Part shown: in pieces, positions 26,357-37,394 of the stretch
Layout: the number at the start of each line of letters is the position of its first letter
Numbering within the stretch: position 1 is the first letter of the stretch
Source of the DNA: an uncultured Bacillota bacterium
GTDB lineage: Bacteria; Bacillota_I; Bacilli_A; RFN20; CAG-826
Direction: 5' to 3'
Assembly (NCBI GenBank): GCA_949298195.1
Contig: CASFVT010000007.1
Span: 62,001 to 126,000 of the forward strand
Length of the DNA stretch: 64,000 bases
Program-made: the position numbers and the translations under genes
The notes under the pieces: generated by a model
The model's database searches: none
What the model saw: only the letters and a program-made list of their open reading frames with translations
Told to the model about the DNA's origin: nothing

Positions 26357-26384
26357 TTGAAATATCATTCATTGCTTGTATTTT
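26357..26384 (+). promoter_or_regulatory. Promoter of the second M6 lipoprotein gene
   Basis: TTGAAA (26357-26362) and TATTTT (26379-26384) with a 16-nt spacer in an AT-rich stretch, about 40 nt before the AAAGGAGG ribosome-binding site. Confidence 0.55.
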
Positions 26385-26431
26385 ATATCCGCGCCTCCAC
26401 GCGTCATTTCTTTTATAAAGGAGGATACGAC

Positions 26432-28540
26432 ATGAAAAGGAAGCCCCTATTGGCCGCCAGCCTGCTTGCCACCGCCATGGCGCTCGCTGCCTGCGGCCCC
26501 ACGGTTCCGGGTCTCATCAAGACCGGTCACGTCGACATGACCTTGACCCACGACACCATCCCCGCCGGGACGACCTTCTACGACGGCTGCTTGCCCAAGG
26601 TCGTCGACGAAGACACGAACGCGGACATCTCCAACTACTTCAACCAGTTGGTCTTCACGATCAACCCCATCGTCGACGGAGCGGTCGACACCTCGGTCTC
26701 GTACGGAGCCGACGATGCCCTCCCGGAGGGCACTTACCGGGCCAATCTCCAAGCCCGCTCCAGCGTCGTCGAGGTCGATTTCACCGTCTCGCCCGACACT
26801 TCCGTCGAAGCCAGCGAAGGCAAAGGCTACACGACCGTCTACGGCGGCGAGGGCACGGAATTCGACCGTCTCGCCCTATCGAAGGCCGATAGCAGCCTCG
26901 GCACCCTCGGGGTCGGCAACTTCCCCTCGAAAGGCAGCCCGAAGATGATCGTCATCCCGATCTACTTCGCCGACATGAAAGGTTCGGCCGGTTCCACGAA
27001 CGGCACCTTCTCCGCCGAAGAACTCGACATCATCGAACGGGCCTACTTCGGCACCAACTGGAAGGACACCGACCAGACCAAGCGGACTTCGTGGGAGTCC
27101 CTCCACAGTTACTACCTGACTTCCAGCTACGGGAAACTGGACATCGAAGGCCTCGTCACCGACCCCTTCCAATCCTCCTATACCCAAAGCGAAATCGAAA
27201 CCGGTAGCGCTGCCACCCTCGTCACCGAGGCTTGGAACTGGTTCAAGGCCAATCACCAAGACGAAGACCTCCGCGACTATGACTACAACGGCGACGGCTA
27301 CGTCGACTCGATCAACTTGATCTACAAGACGACCCGTGCCCTATCCGGGAGCGGCACCGAAAGCGGCGGCAACGACTTCTGGTGGAACTACACCTCGAAC
27401 GTGAGCGGCAACCCGAACGTGAACAGCCCGGTTCCCCACCGCTTCTTCTTCGCCTCCCTCTCGATGATCCGGAGCAACTACTACCCCGATTTCCCGGTCA
27501 TCGACAGCCACGTCCTCGTCCACGAACACGGCCACGCGATGGGCCTCGCCGACTACTACAGCTATCTCTATGACGAGAAGCAATCCAAAGTCGACGGCGC
27601 CCCGGCCGGCTGCGCGGACATGATGGACATGAACGTCGGCGACCACAATGCCTATTCGAAGATGCGCTTCGACTGGCTCAAGGAGAATCCCGACGACACC
27701 GGCCTTGACCTCAAATACATCGACGGCAGCGCCGACAACTTCACCATCACCATCGACTCCTACGCCGACGAAGGCGATGTCATCGTCGTCAGGAACACCT
27801 CGACCGATCCTTGGAACAAGACCCCCTACGACGAGTACCTCATCATCACTTACTACACCCCGACCGGGGTCAATGACCTCGACTCCGAGGGCTATGGCGA
27901 ATGGCTCATTGCCAACGAGTCGACCGGTTCGGCCAATAACGGCAACGGCGGCCCCTACAAATACCCCGGCATCCAGATCTTCCACGTCGATGCCCGGGTC
28001 GGGGCCAGCGTCGGGACTTGGGAAGAAGATCCCATGACCGGCAAGGTCGTGGAGACCAAGACCGGCGACATCTACACCGACAAGATCTACCAAGGCGGCA
28101 CCCACTACGAGGGCGAGGGTAGCGGCACCTACGAAAGCGCGGCCTACTTCCTCACCTCGAACACCTCGGCGACCACCCTCGAGAACCGGCCGGGCTCCGA
28201 GAAAATCGTCGACGGGAAGCGGACCGAAGGCGGCGATGCCGAGATCAGGGCCATCCTCTCCTCGGGCGTCGATAGCTTCTCCTCGACTTCCTACTACAAC
28301 AACTTCGGCGTCCAGTCGAATCTCTTCGGGACGAAGGAATACGGGGAAGAGAAGGGATTCCTCTCCACCGAGCGTTACGGTGGGAATACCTACTCCAACT
28401 ACCAAGCCCGGGCCTTCTTCCAAAACCAGGAGGAACTCCTCTGGAACGACGGCTCCTTCTTCAATTGGACGATCTCGGTCGAATCGCAGACCGATGAAAG
28501 CGCCACCCTCCACTTCGTGAACAACGAAAGCATAGACTGA
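26432..28540 (+). CDS. M6-type metalloprotease lipoprotein (larger paralogue)
   Basis: 702 residues from ATG 26432, chosen because AAAGGAGG lies just upstream and a proper signal with lipobox MALAAC follows. The zinc site is HEHGHAMGLADYY near residue 365, and DYNGDGYVD about 75 residues earlier resembles a calcium loop. MDMNVGDHNAYSKMRFDWL matches the equivalent MDANVIDHNAYTKFSLGWI of the protease at 14464, so the two are paralogues. It should be a surface protease with a larger C-terminal part. Divergent from the opp operon, it is well placed to share regulation with it. A Ser/Thr-rich, glycine-rich sequence around residues 300-350 precedes the active site. Confidence 0.85.
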   Translation: MKRKPLLAASLLATAMALAACGPTVPGLIKTGHVDMTLTHDTIPAGTTFYDGCLPKVVDEDTNADISNYFNQLVFTINPIVDGAVDTSVSYGADDALPEGTYRANLQARSSVVEVDFTVSPDTSVEASEGKGYTTVYGGEGTEFDRLALSKADSSLGTLGVGNFPSKGSPKMIVIPIYFADMKGSAGSTNGTFSAEELDIIERAYFGTNWKDTDQTKRTSWESLHSYYLTSSYGKLDIEGLVTDPFQSSYTQSEIETGSAATLVTEAWNWFKANHQDEDLRDYDYNGDGYVDSINLIYKTTRALSGSGTESGGNDFWWNYTSNVSGNPNVNSPVPHRFFFASLSMIRSNYYPDFPVIDSHVLVHEHGHAMGLADYYSYLYDEKQSKVDGAPAGCADMMDMNVGDHNAYSKMRFDWLKENPDDTGLDLKYIDGSADNFTITIDSYADEGDVIVVRNTSTDPWNKTPYDEYLIITYYTPTGVNDLDSEGYGEWLIANESTGSANNGNGGPYKYPGIQIFHVDARVGASVGTWEEDPMTGKVVETKTGDIYTDKIYQGGTHYEGEGSGTYESAAYFLTSNTSATTLENRPGSEKIVDGKRTEGGDAEIRAILSSGVDSFSSTSYYNNFGVQSNLFGTKEYGEEKGFLSTERYGGNTYSNYQARAFFQNQEELLWNDGSFFNWTISVESQTDESATLHFVNNESID

Positions 28541-28608: not shown

Positions 28609-30678
28609 ATGAACAAGAAATTGAACATCGGAATGGCGATTGTCGGCTCCCTCGGGATCGGGCTTGCCCTCGGGGCTTGCAACCCCCCGGAGAACACCTC
28701 GAGCTCGACCTCCTCGAGCTCGGTGGTGACCGAATCCCCGGCCATCACCTTCGATCGGAACGCCCCGACGATGATCAAGCTCGGCGAGACGTTCAATCTC
28801 GACGACATCATCACCGTGGCCCCGGCCGGAGCCACCTACACCATTTCCTCCAACAACGACGTGGTGAGCATCAACGGCCATAGCATCACCGTCAATAAGC
28901 TCGGGACCATCGACATCAAGGTCACCCACGGCACGGCCACCAACATCATCCGGAGTTGGCAAGCCCAGGCCGTCTCGGAGGATTTCTACGCCATCCACGA
29001 AACCCTGAGCACCGTGAAGGACAACTACACGATGACCGCGACCTACATCTCCGGTACCGGCAGCACCTCCCTCACCGAAATCATCCACAACGAGGACTAT
29101 TACATGATCTGCCTCGGGCGGGGTCTGGCTCTGGGAAACGGCGGTTATGCCGATCTCTTCCAGGGCATGATCGAGTATCCGAACGGCCACACCTACAATG
29201 CCTACATGGAGCACGACTTCATCGTCGGCCCAAACGGCACCCCGATTTACACGACCGACGATCCCGTCCTCGAGATCCAGAACGGCATGACCAGGCCGAA
29301 GGAATCCTATGTCCTCGGCATCGACCTCGAATTCCCGAGCGGGGCCATCATCGAAACCCCGGACGAAGATGACCCGACGAAGGGCACCATCTCGATGAGC
29401 GTCGGCCTCGACGAAAACGGCAATGTGGATTCTGACCTCGTCAACTACGCGGAGCAATGGCTCCTTTACGGGACCAGCCTTGCCTATGACGTGGTCGACC
29501 TCAGTGCCTCCCTCCAAGCCCAGGGAATCAACTTCGGCAAATACGCCTACAACGAGATGAGCATCCTCGATGGGGATATCACCGCTTCCTTCTACGATAT
29601 CAATGGGAATGAAGTGCGCCTCGACATGACCGAGATTGGCACGACGAAGATCGATGTCATCGAGGAAAAGCTCGAAAGCGGCGTCGAACCGACCCCGCTC
29701 AAGTTCGAGGCCCTCAACGACTTCATGACCTCGATCAACGGAGCCGGGGAGAGCCCGGTCCACTCCTCCTTCACCTTGAAGGGCGAGATCTACGCCGGTG
29801 GCGTCGCCAACATCTCCATCCCGCAACTCGGTGTCGATGGTGGTTTCTTCCATGCCGCGAGTGAGGAAGCCGCGACTCGGCTTGCCGCTTGGAGCAACGG
29901 CTACCTCGGCCAGATGGTCGAATACGGGGCCTGGACGGCGACCGTCGAAGGCGAGACCTACTACTCGGTCAACGACGAGACCGGGAAAGTCGATGCCTAC
30001 CTCAAGGGAGATGACGGCTATCTCTACAACGTTTACAGTGGATCCGAGGACGCCCTGACCGCCCGTTCCTTCTCCGATTCGACCGATTCCACCATCTGGG
30101 ATGGGATGCTGAGCGTCGTCTATAGCGACGCCGACGGAGGCAACGCGACCCCGTCCTACCTCTCCCTCACCCCGGGTGTCTTCACCGAGGAACGCCTAGG
30201 CGAAATTGACTATTCGATCGTTCAAGACCAAGGCGAGGGAAGCTGGGTTGCCCTGGCCACCCCCTATGGTGACGCCCAACGCCTCCTCACTTGGTTCATC
30301 ACCGCGATTCCGCAGGCCGGGAGCCTCGCCTATCTCTTCCTTAGCGGACTCTCCAGCGTCGGCGGGGAGATGGCCTGGTACGACTTCTTCGACAGTGTCC
30401 AAATCAACCTCTATCCCGACGGGAACGGCGGGAACATCCTCCAGATGATCATGGTGACGACCGGCTTCGGGGTCTATGACACCGTCGACACGGCCGTGGC
30501 CGCGAACGAAGCCCTTGACCTCACCGGCACCGAATACGAACTGGCCCCCGGTTCACTTGGCACCCAGCAGATGGATACCGGCCTCGTCTTCCGCCTCGAG
30601 ATCGGCGGAGTCGGTACCTCCGCGATCGACGACGATGCCGCGGCTGCCCTCGATGCGGCGATGGCCGCGATTGCCTAA
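28609..30678 (+). CDS. Large lipoprotein with N-terminal Ig-like domain
   Basis: 689 residues from ATG 28609 (GAAAGGA upstream), lipobox ALGAC, then a short Ser/Thr linker. Residues about 45-110 read as a bacterial Ig-like (Big) domain (GETFNLDDI ... YTISSNNDVVSINGHSITV). The rest is Gly/Asp/Tyr-rich with alternating beta-type strands and a C-terminal Ala-rich helix (DDDAAAALDAAMAAIA). No enzyme motif is visible. It may bind polysaccharide or protein at the surface. A strong terminator follows. Codon use is GC-rich like its neighbours. Confidence 0.75.
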   Translation: MNKKLNIGMAIVGSLGIGLALGACNPPENTSSSTSSSSVVTESPAITFDRNAPTMIKLGETFNLDDIITVAPAGATYTISSNNDVVSINGHSITVNKLGTIDIKVTHGTATNIIRSWQAQAVSEDFYAIHETLSTVKDNYTMTATYISGTGSTSLTEIIHNEDYYMICLGRGLALGNGGYADLFQGMIEYPNGHTYNAYMEHDFIVGPNGTPIYTTDDPVLEIQNGMTRPKESYVLGIDLEFPSGAIIETPDEDDPTKGTISMSVGLDENGNVDSDLVNYAEQWLLYGTSLAYDVVDLSASLQAQGINFGKYAYNEMSILDGDITASFYDINGNEVRLDMTEIGTTKIDVIEEKLESGVEPTPLKFEALNDFMTSINGAGESPVHSSFTLKGEIYAGGVANISIPQLGVDGGFFHAASEEAATRLAAWSNGYLGQMVEYGAWTATVEGETYYSVNDETGKVDAYLKGDDGYLYNVYSGSEDALTARSFSDSTDSTIWDGMLSVVYSDADGGNATPSYLSLTPGVFTEERLGEIDYSIVQDQGEGSWVALATPYGDAQRLLTWFITAIPQAGSLAYLFLSGLSSVGGEMAWYDFFDSVQINLYPDGNGGNILQMIMVTTGFGVYDTVDTAVAANEALDLTGTEYELAPGSLGTQQMDTGLVFRLEIGGVGTSAIDDDAAAALDAAMAAIA

Positions 30679-30698
30679 TCGATCGCTTCGCTTACCGC

Positions 30699-30724
30699 AA
30701 GGCTCCCTCCCGGGGGCCTTTTTT
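30699..30724 (+). terminator. Terminator after the 689-residue lipoprotein
   Basis: Stem AAGGCTCCC/GGGGGCCTT (one G-T pair) followed by a run of T. Confidence 0.8.
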
Positions 30725-30743
30725 CGTGCATTCCGAAAAAAAG

Positions 30744-30767
30744 AAAAAGCCTGTGGTCATACAGGCC
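30744..30767 (-). terminator. Minus-strand terminator of the repeat region
   Basis: GCCTGT/ACAGGC stem with a 6-nt loop, followed on the minus strand by TTTTTCTTTTTTT. It ends transcription coming from the membrane genes or from the candidate RNA. Confidence 0.6.
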
Positions 30768-30777
30768 TGACGGCAGG

Positions 30778-30826
30778 CCGGGACGTGGGAACGGCCGTCC
30801 TTGATCCTGCCGTCACCATAGTAACG
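30778..30826. repeat. Imperfect direct repeat, copy 1
   Basis: 49-nt element sharing CGTGGGAAC, GCC and CCGTCACCA..TAACG blocks, in the same order and nearly the same spacing, with the element at 30910. Here it is enclosed by the TGACGGCAGG/CCTGCCGTCA stem. Confidence 0.6.
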
Positions 30827-30909
30827 GGCACTGCCGTCTCTTTATTGGAAAAACACCGTGTTTTTCCATCCGAACGGGTTTTGCGGGCGAAAAAAAGACG
30901 ATGTCACCA

Positions 30910-30960
30910 CCGGGCGTGGGAACAGCCACCCGGAAGGTTCCACCGTCACCAGTATTAACG
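30910..30960. repeat. Imperfect direct repeat, copy 2
   Basis: 51-nt partner of the element at 30778, 132 nt away. The inner hairpin is kept by different bases (CCGGG...CCCGG instead of GGACG...CGTCC), which suggests that structure is conserved and not only sequence. Confidence 0.6.
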
Positions 30961-31009
30961 CGGGGGAAGATGTTTTGTTGGCAATATATCCGAAATCGAG
31001 AATCTCCCG

Positions 31010-31471
31010 TCACTCAGCCTTGGCTTCTTTCTTGGTGAAAGAAGAAATCAAGAGGGCGAGTCCCGCGCCGAAGAAGAGGAGGAAAGCCGCCATGAGAAGG
31101 AAGGGGCCGGGGCCAACCATGTAGGTAGATTCGGCCGGGAGCGTCTCGGGGTGGGCATACGGCTCGAAGAGGGGGATGGTCGCGTAGACGGCATAGAGGA
31201 GGCTTGCAAGGGGGAGGAGGGTTCCAAGCGAGGCAAGGCCCCGACCCCGGAAGAAGGACAAGCCGGTCCCGACGAGGGGGAGGAAGAGGAACAAATAGAC
31301 AACGGCCGGGCTTTCGGACGGAAGGAAGGACTGGAAGTCGCTCGTCGTCGCGTCTCCCTTGAAATCCGTCAAGACGGTGAAAGGCACGAAGAAGGACACG
31401 AGCACGAGGACGACACCAACGAGGGTGAGGCAAAGTGCCACTATCTCGACGGCTTTATTCTTTTTCGCCAT
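31010..31471 (-). CDS. Four-helix membrane protein, unknown
   Basis: 153 residues with four hydrophobic segments and short basic ends (MAKKNKAVE..., TKKEAKAE). Its start overlaps the end of the upstream 202-residue membrane gene by 17 nt, so the two are co-expressed and may act together. The same topology occurs in the gene at 13917. No family recognised. Confidence 0.65.
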   Translation of the reverse strand: MAKKNKAVEIVALCLTLVGVVLVLVSFFVPFTVLTDFKGDATTSDFQSFLPSESPAVVYLFLFLPLVGTGLSFFRGRGLASLGTLLPLASLLYAVYATIPLFEPYAHPETLPAESTYMVGPGPFLLMAAFLLFFGAGLALLISSFTKKEAKAE

Positions 31472-32063
31472 GGAGGGCTGCCTTCCGTGCCTCGGAATAT
31501 TCTTCTTCGCTGATGGTACCGTTGGCCTTCAAGTCATCGAGTTCCTTGAGACGCGAGGCAATGGTGTGGGTTCCACGTCCGGCGACGAACTTCGCGATCG
31601 GCTCGAGAAGATAGGAAGAGACGATGCCGATGAGCAAGGCCACGATGAGGAAGACGGCATAGACGACGAGGAGCCACGAGGAATCGGTAATGTCAGGGCC
31701 CCCACCGAGCACATCGACCGCGCCGCTTACCCCCCTACTGAGGTAAATGGCAAAGCTGAAACCGATCATGAGGCCGACGTATTCGACCGCGTCAAGGGAA
31801 CGGTTCTTCTTGACCAAGCTGAAAGCGGGGGCGGCGAACAAGACGCAAGCAGCGAAAAGGGCCGGGAAGAAGTCGAGGACGAGCCCGGTGACATCGCCGG
31901 TTGACCCGCCCAAGCCGAGGAGATCATACAGGTAGATTTCCACCGTCGAGGCGGAAGAGCCGCCATCGACCCTCATGAGGGGCACGAGGAAAGCGATGAG
32001 GAGTAGGAGAGTGGCCGCAAGGGCAAAACCGCGCTTGACGATGCCGAGGATTTTCTGGGTCAT
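31455..32063 (-). CDS. Four-helix membrane protein with C-terminal SHOCT-like domain
   Basis: 202 residues from the ATG at 32063, selected because AAGGAGG ends 5 nt before it (a TTG seven codons upstream has no such site). Four membrane segments are followed by a cytoplasmic helix-hairpin RLKELDDLKANGTISEEEYS, the signature of the short C-terminal (SHOCT) oligomerisation domain. Such domains are found at the ends of many bacterial membrane proteins. It heads a two-gene minus-strand unit inserted between plus-strand surface protein genes. Function unknown. Confidence 0.7.
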   Translation of the reverse strand: MTQKILGIVKRGFALAATLLLLIAFLVPLMRVDGGSSASTVEIYLYDLLGLGGSTGDVTGLVLDFFPALFAACVLFAAPAFSLVKKNRSLDAVEYVGLMIGFSFAIYLSRGVSGAVDVLGGGPDITDSSWLLVVYAVFLIVALLIGIVSSYLLEPIAKFVAGRGTHTIASRLKELDDLKANGTISEEEYSEARKAALHGEKE

Positions 32064-32318
32064 AAGGACCTCCTTATTGGCCAAATGTTATTCCAAGAAC
32101 CGGGAGCCCTCAAGACGCGGAGGGTTCCACCAAAGTCCCAAATTTGGCATTTTGCCTGAAAAATCCCGATGGGAACTGATCCCATTAGGAAATTTCCAAC
32201 CAAAGAAAGCAACAAATGATTGATTTTTTGCTCAGTAGTCGTATGGTCATCGCATTCAGTGGGCTTCGCGACCGAGCCCGAGACGCGGTCCCGCTGGAAA
32301 CGGAGGATCTTCCCTAGC

Positions 32319-34094
32319 ATGAAGAAAACTAACGCAGGGGCGCTTCTAATTGCCCTCTCTGCCCTCATCCTTGCCGGTTGCGACAATCCGGTCACGTCGA
32401 GTTCCACGCAATCGACTGAGGGGGGGTCTTCGATCACTTCCCTGCCCGATGGATCTGGCTCGTCCAGTAGCAGCTCCATCTCGACCAGCAGCTCGTCGTC
32501 TTCGAGCAGCAGTTCATCAGAGCCGGATCCGGAACCGGTCATTGACCCGGCCGAGCTCCTCGCCGATGCCCTCACGAAAGACTATTCCAACTGGTTCGGC
32601 AATCTCTATGAAGCGGTCGACGGCACGGACACGGCCGCCTACGACATCTACCGATACGACGGTTACACGATTGTCTACGACCCCTACCTGGCCGAAATGT
32701 ACGGCGACACCATCACCTATCAAGATTGCTTTGACTTCTTCCACGATTACGAAGGGGAGAGCTACCGCTACCTCGAGGACAACGGGAACGGGCCTGGCTG
32801 GCTCGCTACCGGTTATCACAACATCCCCCTCGGCTTCGACAACATCTATTTCGAGATCGAGGAAGCCATTGAGGCCCTCAAGACCCTGACGGCCGAGGAA
32901 TACACCTACGCCTACGGGATTTACTACGTCACCGACGCGGAGGCCGTCGAAAGGATCCTCCCGCAGGTTTTCAATTACTCGACCCTCGGGGCGCTCGATC
33001 TCAACACCTTCAGCTTCCAAATCGACCAGAACGGCTACTTCTGCGATTTCTTCTCGGCCTATGACGACGGAACCGACGACGTCGGCACCTATGTCGAGGC
33101 CTGTTATGAGGATTTCGGCTCCACCGCTGCTCCCCAGTACGTCGAGGTTCCGGCGGCCCCGACCGAGGATACGATCCGCGATTACTACGAAGACTACACC
33201 GATGAGCCGCAGTGGTACGACATCCGGGTCGAGAGCATCGACATCTCGGTCGAAGAGAAGACCGAAATCGAACTTCGTCTCGACGAGACGGCTGTCATCT
33301 CGATGTCCTATCTCCCCGCGAACGCGACCGTCTTCCTCTTCTCGGCCGCTTCGAGCGACGAAGGCGTCGCGACGGTCGATTACAACAATGACGGCGACTT
33401 CCTAATCACGGCCGTGAACGCCGGCGAAGCGACCATCACCGTCACCGACCTGATGGAGGAAATCTCCTCCAACACCATCACCGTCACCGTCATCGACGAC
33501 CGCTTCCCGACCAGAACCGATATCGTCAACGACCTCTACTTCGACACCATCAACGGCACGACCGGCTCCTTCGAACTCTACGATGCCTTAAGCGATGATG
33601 GTACCGCCAATCTTTCGATGACCCCGATCGACCTCGAGAACACGAGCCTCACCTACCCGCTCTCGAGCCACGACAACACCTTCGATTCGGAAAGCGAACA
33701 GATCGCCATCTTCGAGATGGGGGAGATCAACCACTCGCGGGCCGGTTTCGTCATCGAATACGAAGAAGGCTCCTCCGCCGACGGCATTGCCTTCCGTTAT
33801 GGCCTCCCCTTCGAGGACCACGAATCGAACCTCGGCTGGATGACCCCGGTCAACCCGGAACCCGATAGTGAATACGGGGTCCACACCTACGTGAGCAACG
33901 ACGGGGTGGATTACGTCGAAGCCGATGACTGGACCGAGGAATTCGTCGCTAACGCCAACGGCCATAACCTCAGCCTCTACGAATGCGACTTCGATGCCGC
34001 CTACCGTTACATCAAAGTCGAGTTCTACAGTTACTACCTTGGCAAACCGATCTGGGTCGGCATCCAGAACGTCAAGCTCTACCACGCCGCTTGA
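32319..34094 (+). CDS. Surface lipoprotein with Ser-rich linker and Ig-like domain
   Basis: 591 residues from ATG 32319: signal with lipobox LILAGC, a long low-complexity linker (residues about 27-68, dominated by Ser) that spaces the protein from the cell surface, an Asp/Tyr-rich globular part (75-300), a Big_2-like Ig domain (about 305-395; VESIDISVEEKTEIELRLDE ... GEATITV) and a C-terminal beta-rich domain that looks discoidin-like (IAIFEMGEIN ... YRYIKVEFYS...VGIQNVKLY). The C-terminal pattern suggests carbohydrate binding. No catalytic motif seen. It is 17 nt upstream of the next gene, so they form an operon. The 255 nt before it carry an ATGGGA/TCCCAT inverted repeat and no clear promoter. 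Confidence 0.72.
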   Translation: MKKTNAGALLIALSALILAGCDNPVTSSSTQSTEGGSSITSLPDGSGSSSSSSISTSSSSSSSSSSSEPDPEPVIDPAELLADALTKDYSNWFGNLYEAVDGTDTAAYDIYRYDGYTIVYDPYLAEMYGDTITYQDCFDFFHDYEGESYRYLEDNGNGPGWLATGYHNIPLGFDNIYFEIEEAIEALKTLTAEEYTYAYGIYYVTDAEAVERILPQVFNYSTLGALDLNTFSFQIDQNGYFCDFFSAYDDGTDDVGTYVEACYEDFGSTAAPQYVEVPAAPTEDTIRDYYEDYTDEPQWYDIRVESIDISVEEKTEIELRLDETAVISMSYLPANATVFLFSAASSDEGVATVDYNNDGDFLITAVNAGEATITVTDLMEEISSNTITVTVIDDRFPTRTDIVNDLYFDTINGTTGSFELYDALSDDGTANLSMTPIDLENTSLTYPLSSHDNTFDSESEQIAIFEMGEINHSRAGFVIEYEEGSSADGIAFRYGLPFEDHESNLGWMTPVNPEPDSEYGVHTYVSNDGVDYVEADDWTEEFVANANGHNLSLYECDFDAAYRYIKVEFYSYYLGKPIWVGIQNVKLYHAA

Positions 34095-35720: not shown

Positions 35721-37394
35721 CTATTCGGCTTTGGCTGACCTTACGTCCTTGATGGCTTTTTGAAGTCCGCGGATCGTATAGGTCAAATCCTTCAACTCGG
35801 ATTGCTTGAGGGTGCGTACCCGGGCTTCTTGCTCCTCGATGTCCTTGATCTTGGCCTCCCGGGGGTAAGCCGGGTTGTTGATCTTGCTCTTGAGGTCGCG
35901 GTCGGCCTTTACGGCGGCATCGTAATTCTCGCTATGGACGAGCTTGCGGCCCCGTTGGGCATGGCTTTCCCTGCCCTTGGCCTCTTTCCGTTCCCCCTTG
36001 TTGTCGGAGGGCTTGGCCTCCTTTTTGGGGCTTGCGGGTTTGGCTTTGGGCACGGAAGCGGTCTTTTTGACTTCTTGGGCCGGTTTTTGCGCCGGATTTT
36101 CGTCATTGACCGTCTCGACTTTGTTCTCCTCGAGGCTCACCCGGTAATCGCCGGGGTTCTTCTCGATGTGGAGGTTGACGTTCTTGACGGTCGCCTCGCG
36201 GGTAGAGCTGACCGGAAGCAATGCCACTTCGTGAACCAGCTTCGTGAAGTCGCTCGTGACGAGGTCGTAAGGGCCGTGGACGGCCTTTACGTAGGGGATG
36301 TCCGGATCCCTGATCATCGCCCCGTTCCGGCTCATGAGGTCCTTGAGGGCTGCGATGAAGGTATCGCCCTTCCCATAGGGAAGCCGCTTCTTGGCGGGTT
36401 CCGGGGTCTTGCCGGGTTCCCTTGATTTGGCCATTTCGGCCTTGCTTGAGGATTTGTCTTCCTCTTTTGCCTTCGGGGTTTCGGGCTCCTCCAGCAACTT
36501 GCCTTGCTTATCGATGAGCTCGCCCTTGGCTTCAAGAAGGTCGTCGATCCCGTATAGAAGCTTCCAGGAGGAGATGAGGGAAGATTCGTAGGGTTTCAGG
36601 TTCTTGAGCTGGCGGTCGATGTCATCGAGCTTGCGGGCAAGGGGGTAGGTCTGGTTCCGGACATTGCTGGAGATGGCCCTATCAAGGGCGAGGATCTCGC
36701 TAGGGATGGCCGGAAGGGCCTTGGCTTTGTCTTTCCTTGCGTTGTCCTTTGCCTGTTCTACTGCTTTGGGGGTTGGCTTTTCGCTCGGGGTCTCTTTCCT
36801 GACCGGGGCCGCGAGGGGCTTGCCAGAGGCCAGATGGCCACTTGCCCGCGGGGCTGGGGTCTTGGAATAGACATTGCCTTTGTTCTCCACGAGGTTCGAC
36901 TCTGGGTCGACCTTGTAGACGCTCAGGTAACGCCCGTGCTGGCTATCGAGGGAGTTGAGTTTCTTGATGTCGTCGGTCAAGGTCTTGTCTTGGGTGATGA
37001 GGAGGATCTTGTTGTTGATCCTGAGGCCCGTCATGAGCGATTGGATGGCCGCATCGGCGAAGTCCTCGACTCCCCGGACCCTCTCGACCTTGATTAAGCG
37101 CTTCCCCCGCTTGTCCATCTTCAGGAAACGAAGGGCCCTTTTGGCGTCGATCCTCAATTCGAGGGTCTCGCCGGTCTTCGCGTGTTTCTCAAGCTCGTTC
37201 ACCACTTGGGTGACGACGATGAACTCGGGGAATTTTCCCTCGCTATACTCAGTAGCGGTGTAAAGGGCATCGAGGAAGGGGCCGAAGCTCTCTTCCATGA
37301 GAGAGCAGGTGTCGATGAAGCAATAGTCGAAGTCGGATAGGAACTTGGCTATCTTCGAGGCCTTTGTTTCCTCGGTGAATTGATGTCTTTCGAT
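35721..37394 (-). CDS. PIN-domain protein with long charged tail; non-canonical start
   Basis: The first canonical start (ATG 37298) gives 525 residues but cuts into the PIN fold: the same frame continues upstream with FLSDFDYCFIDTCSLMEESF, where FIDT supplies the first catalytic Asp (codon at 37311-37313). No ATG, GTG or TTG occurs in frame before a TGA near 37510; an ATC at 37394 with AAGGA upstream is the best non-canonical candidate and adds 32 residues. Other PIN acids: Glu in VVNELEKH, Asp residues in EDFADAA and ITQDKTLTDD. After about residue 180 the protein is Lys/Glu/Pro-rich with predicted coiled coils. A Mg2+-dependent RNase role is likely. Start unresolved; a lost ATG is possible. 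Confidence 0.7.
   Translation of the reverse strand: MERHQFTEETKASKIAKFLSDFDYCFIDTCSLMEESFGPFLDALYTATEYSEGKFPEFIVVTQVVNELEKHAKTGETLELRIDAKRALRFLKMDKRGKRLIKVERVRGVEDFADAAIQSLMTGLRINNKILLITQDKTLTDDIKKLNSLDSQHGRYLSVYKVDPESNLVENKGNVYSKTPAPRASGHLASGKPLAAPVRKETPSEKPTPKAVEQAKDNARKDKAKALPAIPSEILALDRAISSNVRNQTYPLARKLDDIDRQLKNLKPYESSLISSWKLLYGIDDLLEAKGELIDKQGKLLEEPETPKAKEEDKSSSKAEMAKSREPGKTPEPAKKRLPYGKGDTFIAALKDLMSRNGAMIRDPDIPYVKAVHGPYDLVTSDFTKLVHEVALLPVSSTREATVKNVNLHIEKNPGDYRVSLEENKVETVNDENPAQKPAQEVKKTASVPKAKPASPKKEAKPSDNKGERKEAKGRESHAQRGRKLVHSENYDAAVKADRDLKSKINNPAYPREAKIKDIEEQEARVRTLKQSELKDLTYTIRGLQKAIKDVRSAKAE

Follow-up and report, generated by a model that had tools for sequence, protein, structure and literature searches.

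The LhrC1-5 RNAs of Listeria monocytogenes are multicopy short sRNAs whose UCCC motifs pair with Shine-Dalgarno regions; they are induced by cell-envelope stress, and surface proteins are among their targets (PMC6794450). GsrN of Caulobacter is an sRNA under the control of an ECF-type stress sigma factor, with a C-rich loop directed at G-rich mRNA sites (PMC5869019). The sigma-E sRNAs MicA, RybB and MicL of E. coli and FoxI/FoxJ of Fusobacterium constitute a non-coding arm of the ECF envelope response (PMC11005410, PMC12249550), and in Fusobacterium and Proteobacteria, envelope proteins are modulated by sRNAs of this kind (PMC11005410).

The locus described here lies in the window, i.e., the whole 64-kb stretch of DNA that was analysed. 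It probably contains a tandem pair of genes for trans-acting, ECF-sigma-dependent sRNAs of about 62 and 75 nt, which would use a C-rich loop as a seed in the manner of the sigma-E, LhrC, and GsrN sRNAs. Like LhrC, these RNAs are multicopy and short and have a C-rich UCCC-type motif, whose pairing is a proposal in the present case; however, the LhrC RNAs are 111–114 nt long and contain three UCCC motifs, whereas the window RNAs have one loop each and an ECF-type promoter. With GsrN they share the 5' hairpin, the exposed C-rich loop as the most conserved part, the intrinsic terminator, and the narrow phylogenetic range (PMC5869019). The lineage and the sequence are different, and GsrN belongs to the PhyR/NepR general stress response, while here a membrane protein gene comes after the ECF gene. 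No relation in sequence or structure to MicA, RybB, MicL, FoxI, or FoxJ was found, and FoxJ is about 156 nt long versus 62–75 nt for the window RNAs. An Rfam search, both at the gathering score and with E values up to 10, returned only chance matches, with no riboswitch and no known family, LhrC included; the original prediction had likewise recognised none. As far as Rfam and the literature searched show, the RNA gene pair is real and previously undescribed. No described RNA family matches it, and by function it is best filed with the ECF-sigma-dependent sRNAs.

Anatomy, homologues and fold of the two units

The gap at 30679-31009 is bordered by a plus-strand lipoprotein gene (ends at 30678) on one side and a minus-strand gene (ends at 31010) on the other; the genome itself (G000) comprises 1.2 Mb in 38 contigs. 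Within 30735-31009, two minus-strand units are located in the same orientation, 133 nt apart: copy A (30848-30743) and copy B (30981-30890). Each unit consists of a promoter-like block (CCAAYAAA-N18-..GGTGA), a hairpin with stems P1 and P2 and a 10-nt loop (GCYGUUCCCA), and a U-tract terminator. The hairpins span 30817-30769 in copy A and 30950-30897 in copy B. The features are as follows:

30974..30981, minus strand: copy B, -35-like box CCAACAAA; exact motif, invariant in the homologues and in ECF gene promoters
30951..30957, minus strand: copy B, -10-like region TAATACT, followed by GGTGA (30950-30946)
30890..30950, minus strand: copy B, predicted RNA of about 62 nt (fold z, blind model match, terminator-like site)
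30947-30941 / 30903-30897, minus strand: copy B, stem P1, GACGGTG / CATCGTC; inner pairs ACC/GGT lie between P1 and P2
30933-30910, minus strand: copy B, stem P2, CCGGGTG/CGCCCGG
30926-30917, minus strand: copy B, loop GCUGUUCCCA
30841..30848, minus strand: copy A, -35-like box CCAATAAA (motif match)
30818..30824, minus strand: copy A, -10-like region TTACTAT, followed by GGTGA (30817-30813)
30769..30817, minus strand: copy A, RNA hairpin (fold z, covariation with homologues)
30814-30806 / 30777-30769, minus strand: copy A, stem P1, GACGGCAGG / CCTGCCGTC
30800-30781, minus strand: copy A, stem P2, GGACG/CGTCC
30795-30786, minus strand: copy A, loop GCCGUUCCCA
30743..30767, minus strand: copy A, intrinsic terminator GGCCTGTATGACCACAGGCTTTTTC, a second hairpin with a T-tract (terminator scan and fold)
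30699..30720, plus strand: terminator of the convergent lipoprotein gene, a neighbour outside the sRNA (terminator scan)

In copy B, the terminator is P1 itself plus a U-tract (CATCGTC-TTTTTTT); in copy A, the hairpin and the separate terminator give a predicted RNA of about 75 nt. Since each copy has its own promoter-like block and its own terminator, the expected products are two RNAs (about 62 and 75 nt) instead of the single transcript of about 240 nt proposed in the original prediction. Its other observations, namely two elements with common blocks in the same order, the minus-strand orientation with the terminator at 30767-30743, and inner stems kept by different pairs (GGACG/CGTCC in copy A, CCGGG/CCCGG in copy B), were reproduced. 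A near-perfect palindrome, TGGAAAAACACGGTGTTTTTCCA, can also be noted at window positions 30846-30868; it overlaps the -35-like box of copy A and is absent from copy B and from the elements of relatives.

The original prediction had made its case dependent on homologues in related genomes and suggested a covariance-model search. An exact pattern search found one copy each in G002, G030, and G035 of the same genus and, in the own genome, only the two copies at 30735-31009. A covariance model, R1, was built from copy A and the G002, G030, and G035 elements, with copy B left out. It recovered copy B blind, with E values of 4.6e-5 across the genome and 2.5e-6 across the window, and added a fifth species, G012 (E 6.7e-9). 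Single-copy homologues are thus present at the same locus in 4 of the 36 same-genus genomes. An R1 search of 279 genomes of the order revealed no further carriers, though stricter filters at that size can lose weak matches. The 120 matches of a pattern scan over a collection of genome contigs were scattered across unrelated phyla and were taken as chance.

Both copies fold better than their dinucleotide shuffles, with z values of -4.03 (copy A) and -3.68 (copy B). In the alignment A5, which contains six sequences (copies A and B and the four relatives) with hand-placed gaps, 93.5% of the P1 and P2 pair cells are standard, compared with 81.8% in shuffles, and both sides have changed in 5 of the 13 stem pairs, e.g., C-G to U-A in P1 of G012 and, at the P2 base, G-C to C-G. 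Covariation scores 0.405 versus 0.194 in shuffles (0/500), and pairing falls to 29–63% when the partner is slid. An A.G mismatch occurs within P2 in four of the six sequences. The covariation in A5 supports the conclusion that the structure of the element is under selection, as had been suspected. The units end in an intrinsic terminator and contain no ORF, as in the class of ECF-sigma-dependent sRNAs. A coding role was rejected: GTG is the sole conserved codon that resembles a start, and the loop's distance from it is 22, 23, 24, or 26 nt, which corresponds to three frames.

The promoter motif and the ECF sigma factor gene

No sigma-70 promoter was found in 30600-32320. The original prediction had named a weak promoter; the promoter-like block that is present has a different consensus. 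The block GGTGACGG, which had been listed as part of a conserved RNA, is indeed conserved, but its 5' half belongs to the promoter motif with GGTGA. The weak R1 matches elsewhere in the genus cover only this upstream block and are located before an ECF sigma factor gene. In relatives this gene (start MAIDEQKLEKAM) was initially read as recA, wrongly: it is the ECF sigma factor. The ECF protein contains the Pfam domains Sigma70_r2 and r4_2 and exceeds the cut-off of TIGR02937 (sigma70-ECF). In the own genome, the gene is at G000:C7:24999-25478, 37 kb left of the window start, and is 89% identical to the G002 orthologue. The next gene encodes a 490-aa protein with one apparent membrane segment (by eye) and no match to a Pfam or NCBIfam family; we infer that this second operon protein is a candidate anti-sigma factor.

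CCAAYAAA is located 84–156 nt upstream of the ECF gene in 18 of 18 orthologues, own genome included, while by our own estimate it would occur by chance within 300 bases per gene in about 1% of cases. It is followed by an AT-rich -10-like TTWAT and then mostly by GGTGA or a degenerate form of it. The strict pattern CCAAYAAN17-19TWNTANNNTGA gives 36 matches in 37 genomes versus 2 for the reversed control. In G002, G012, G030, and G035, there are exactly two matches each, one at the ECF gene and one at the sRNA element; in the own genome only copy A conforms, with copy B and the ECF gene fitting more loosely. The ECF promoter there is a weaker match, with ..TATTAAATGA in place of GGTGA. Despite this degenerate motif, both copies appear to have the promoter type of the own-genome ECF sigma factor. 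These comparisons identify the GGTGA-containing upstream block as a promoter motif common to the units and the ECF sigma factor gene.

Such sharing is equally expected if the sRNAs are real and the common block is the site of another regulator (a transcription factor or another sigma factor) governing the ECF gene as well as the sRNA. This alternative is unlikely. In its favour, the block is read from the sequence alone, further hairpins separate it from the ECF gene, which starts 114–156 nt downstream in most orthologues and 84 nt downstream in the own genome, and in G002 a sigma-70-like TATAAT is nearer to the gene. Against it, other, unrelated ECF genes (G004, G007, G017, G028, G029) bear the block directly before the start codon, as ECF autoregulation predicts, and its half-sites have -35/-10 spacing.

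The ECF leaders have structures of their own. A hairpin forms at their 5' end, and most orthologues have a second one whose loop bears CCCC, often as GAGCCCC. In G005, this second hairpin is followed by a terminator-like TTTTTT, so the promoter of the sigma gene may also yield a short RNA. In the same genome, at G005:C30:5029, an ECF-type promoter motif precedes a membrane-protein gene and then a second gene, which we take to be VTC-domain-like.

The loop, its possible targets and the locus

The GUUCCCA of the loop and the closing CG are invariant in A5 (full loop G[C/A][C/U/A]GUUCCCA), and the stems drift while the loop stays near-invariant. This pattern would also suit an RNA whose loop binds a protein instead of mRNA, as a sponge or scaffold, with the tandem copies raising the dose. 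The target searches are compatible with such a role. Across five genomes, the seed complement TGGGAAC was found 2–22 nt from ATG at 120 sites, compared with 102 for the reversed control, without clear excess and without a conserved target being singled out, and duplex energies in the start regions of the 64-kb window were equal to those of random windows; hence no target is claimed. Nevertheless, base-pairing sRNAs just as typically have C-rich loops that do not vary (PMC6794450, PMC5869019), and protein binding seems an improbable explanation.

Presence of the element coincides with similarity in a 525-aa neighbour protein: the five species that carry it have the versions closest to that of the window (58–61% identity in the four relatives; next best 38%). 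In all five, the element is downstream of the gene of this protein on the same strand: directly after it in G002, G030, and G035, and a few kb from it in G000 and G012, with corresponding flanking lipoprotein genes. This conserved position indicates vertical inheritance. The locus is clade-specific and has been duplicated in the own genome. The 525-aa protein (window 35721-37298, minus strand) has no Pfam or NCBIfam match and is present in 36 of the 37 genomes of the genus; its N-terminus is presumably PIN-like, judged by eye. A 153-aa neighbour gene, for which few homologues exist, shows no link to the element. Further off, at window 26357-28540 on the plus strand, a lipoprotein-like protein with HEHGHAMG, a metalloprotease-like signature, is encoded; it has no Pfam match.

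Beyond the element's terminator, G002, G030, and G035 have a lipoprotein gene in the same orientation, which would suit a cis-acting leader, riboswitch, or attenuator of that gene. Such a role is very unlikely, since the gene that follows is convergent in G000 and G012, leaving nothing for the element to control in cis; its own terminator closes every unit, and Rfam riboswitches gave no match even at E 10. A functionless REP-like or mobile intergenic repeat, suggested by the adjacency of copies A and B and named in the original prediction as another possible source of the covariation, is extremely unlikely given that the own genome has just these two copies and none dispersed, that the relatives hold a single copy at the syntenic locus, and that the stems show compensatory changes.

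Proposed pathway and related units in the sister clade

The tandem sRNA reading thus retains the structure, the orientation, and the lack of an Rfam family from the original interpretation and adds what it had missed: separate units, an ECF promoter motif, and a trans-sRNA character. We infer transcription, sigma dependence, and base-pairing action from sequence comparison. The two units would be diverged tandem copies of a single small RNA gene on the minus strand, each transcribed by RNA polymerase with the ECF sigma factor from CCAAYAAA-N16/17-TWNTA-GGTGA, which the sigma factor would use for its own gene too. Each RNA would begin near GGTGA, fold at once into the long hairpin with the C-rich 10-nt loop, and stop at the intrinsic terminator. 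The RNAs may accumulate when the membrane-spanning partner protein releases the sigma factor. The UUCCC(A) loop could then pair with G-rich sites, for instance those for ribosome binding, probably in envelope or lipoprotein mRNAs, and alter translation. Since the gene pair has the same unusual promoter as the gene of a membrane-stress sigma factor, it is probably the RNA arm of a response to envelope stress.

In AT-rich sister species, the second strict motif site belongs to a different sRNA-like unit of the same architecture. In G001, G009, G019, G020, and G023, the second strict match (in G008, one of three) precedes a short hairpin unit with the loop CCACCA, the stems of which diverge widely between species yet keep pairing; its terminator loop reads ACUCCUUCAC, and the unit folds with z of -3.4 and -4.6. 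At the fully read loci, the unit is flanked by an undecaprenyl-phosphate translocase-like gene (PF04018) on one side and a convergent lipoprotein gene on the other, whereas the GUUCCCA loop of the own clade is found beside lipoprotein genes. Further motif sites precede lipoprotein-like genes in G004, G013, and G028. The position of these sites at lipoprotein and translocase-like loci suggests an envelope regulon. In each of nine species, the strict motif occurs only twice, at the sigma gene itself and at the sRNA, and the identity and place of the sRNA may have switched between the clades while the architecture was kept. Possibly, the ECF sigma factor acts largely via RNA in this small-genome lineage, an idea we put forward tentatively.

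A previously undescribed RNA family thereby gains a probable regulator, an anatomy, and a regulon in a lineage known here from draft genomes only. If the proposed reading is true, a further lineage would join the Proteobacteria and Fusobacteria, for which ECF sigma responses with non-coding arms have been described, and with two unrelated sRNAs switched under one promoter, the replacement of regulatory RNAs would become directly testable.
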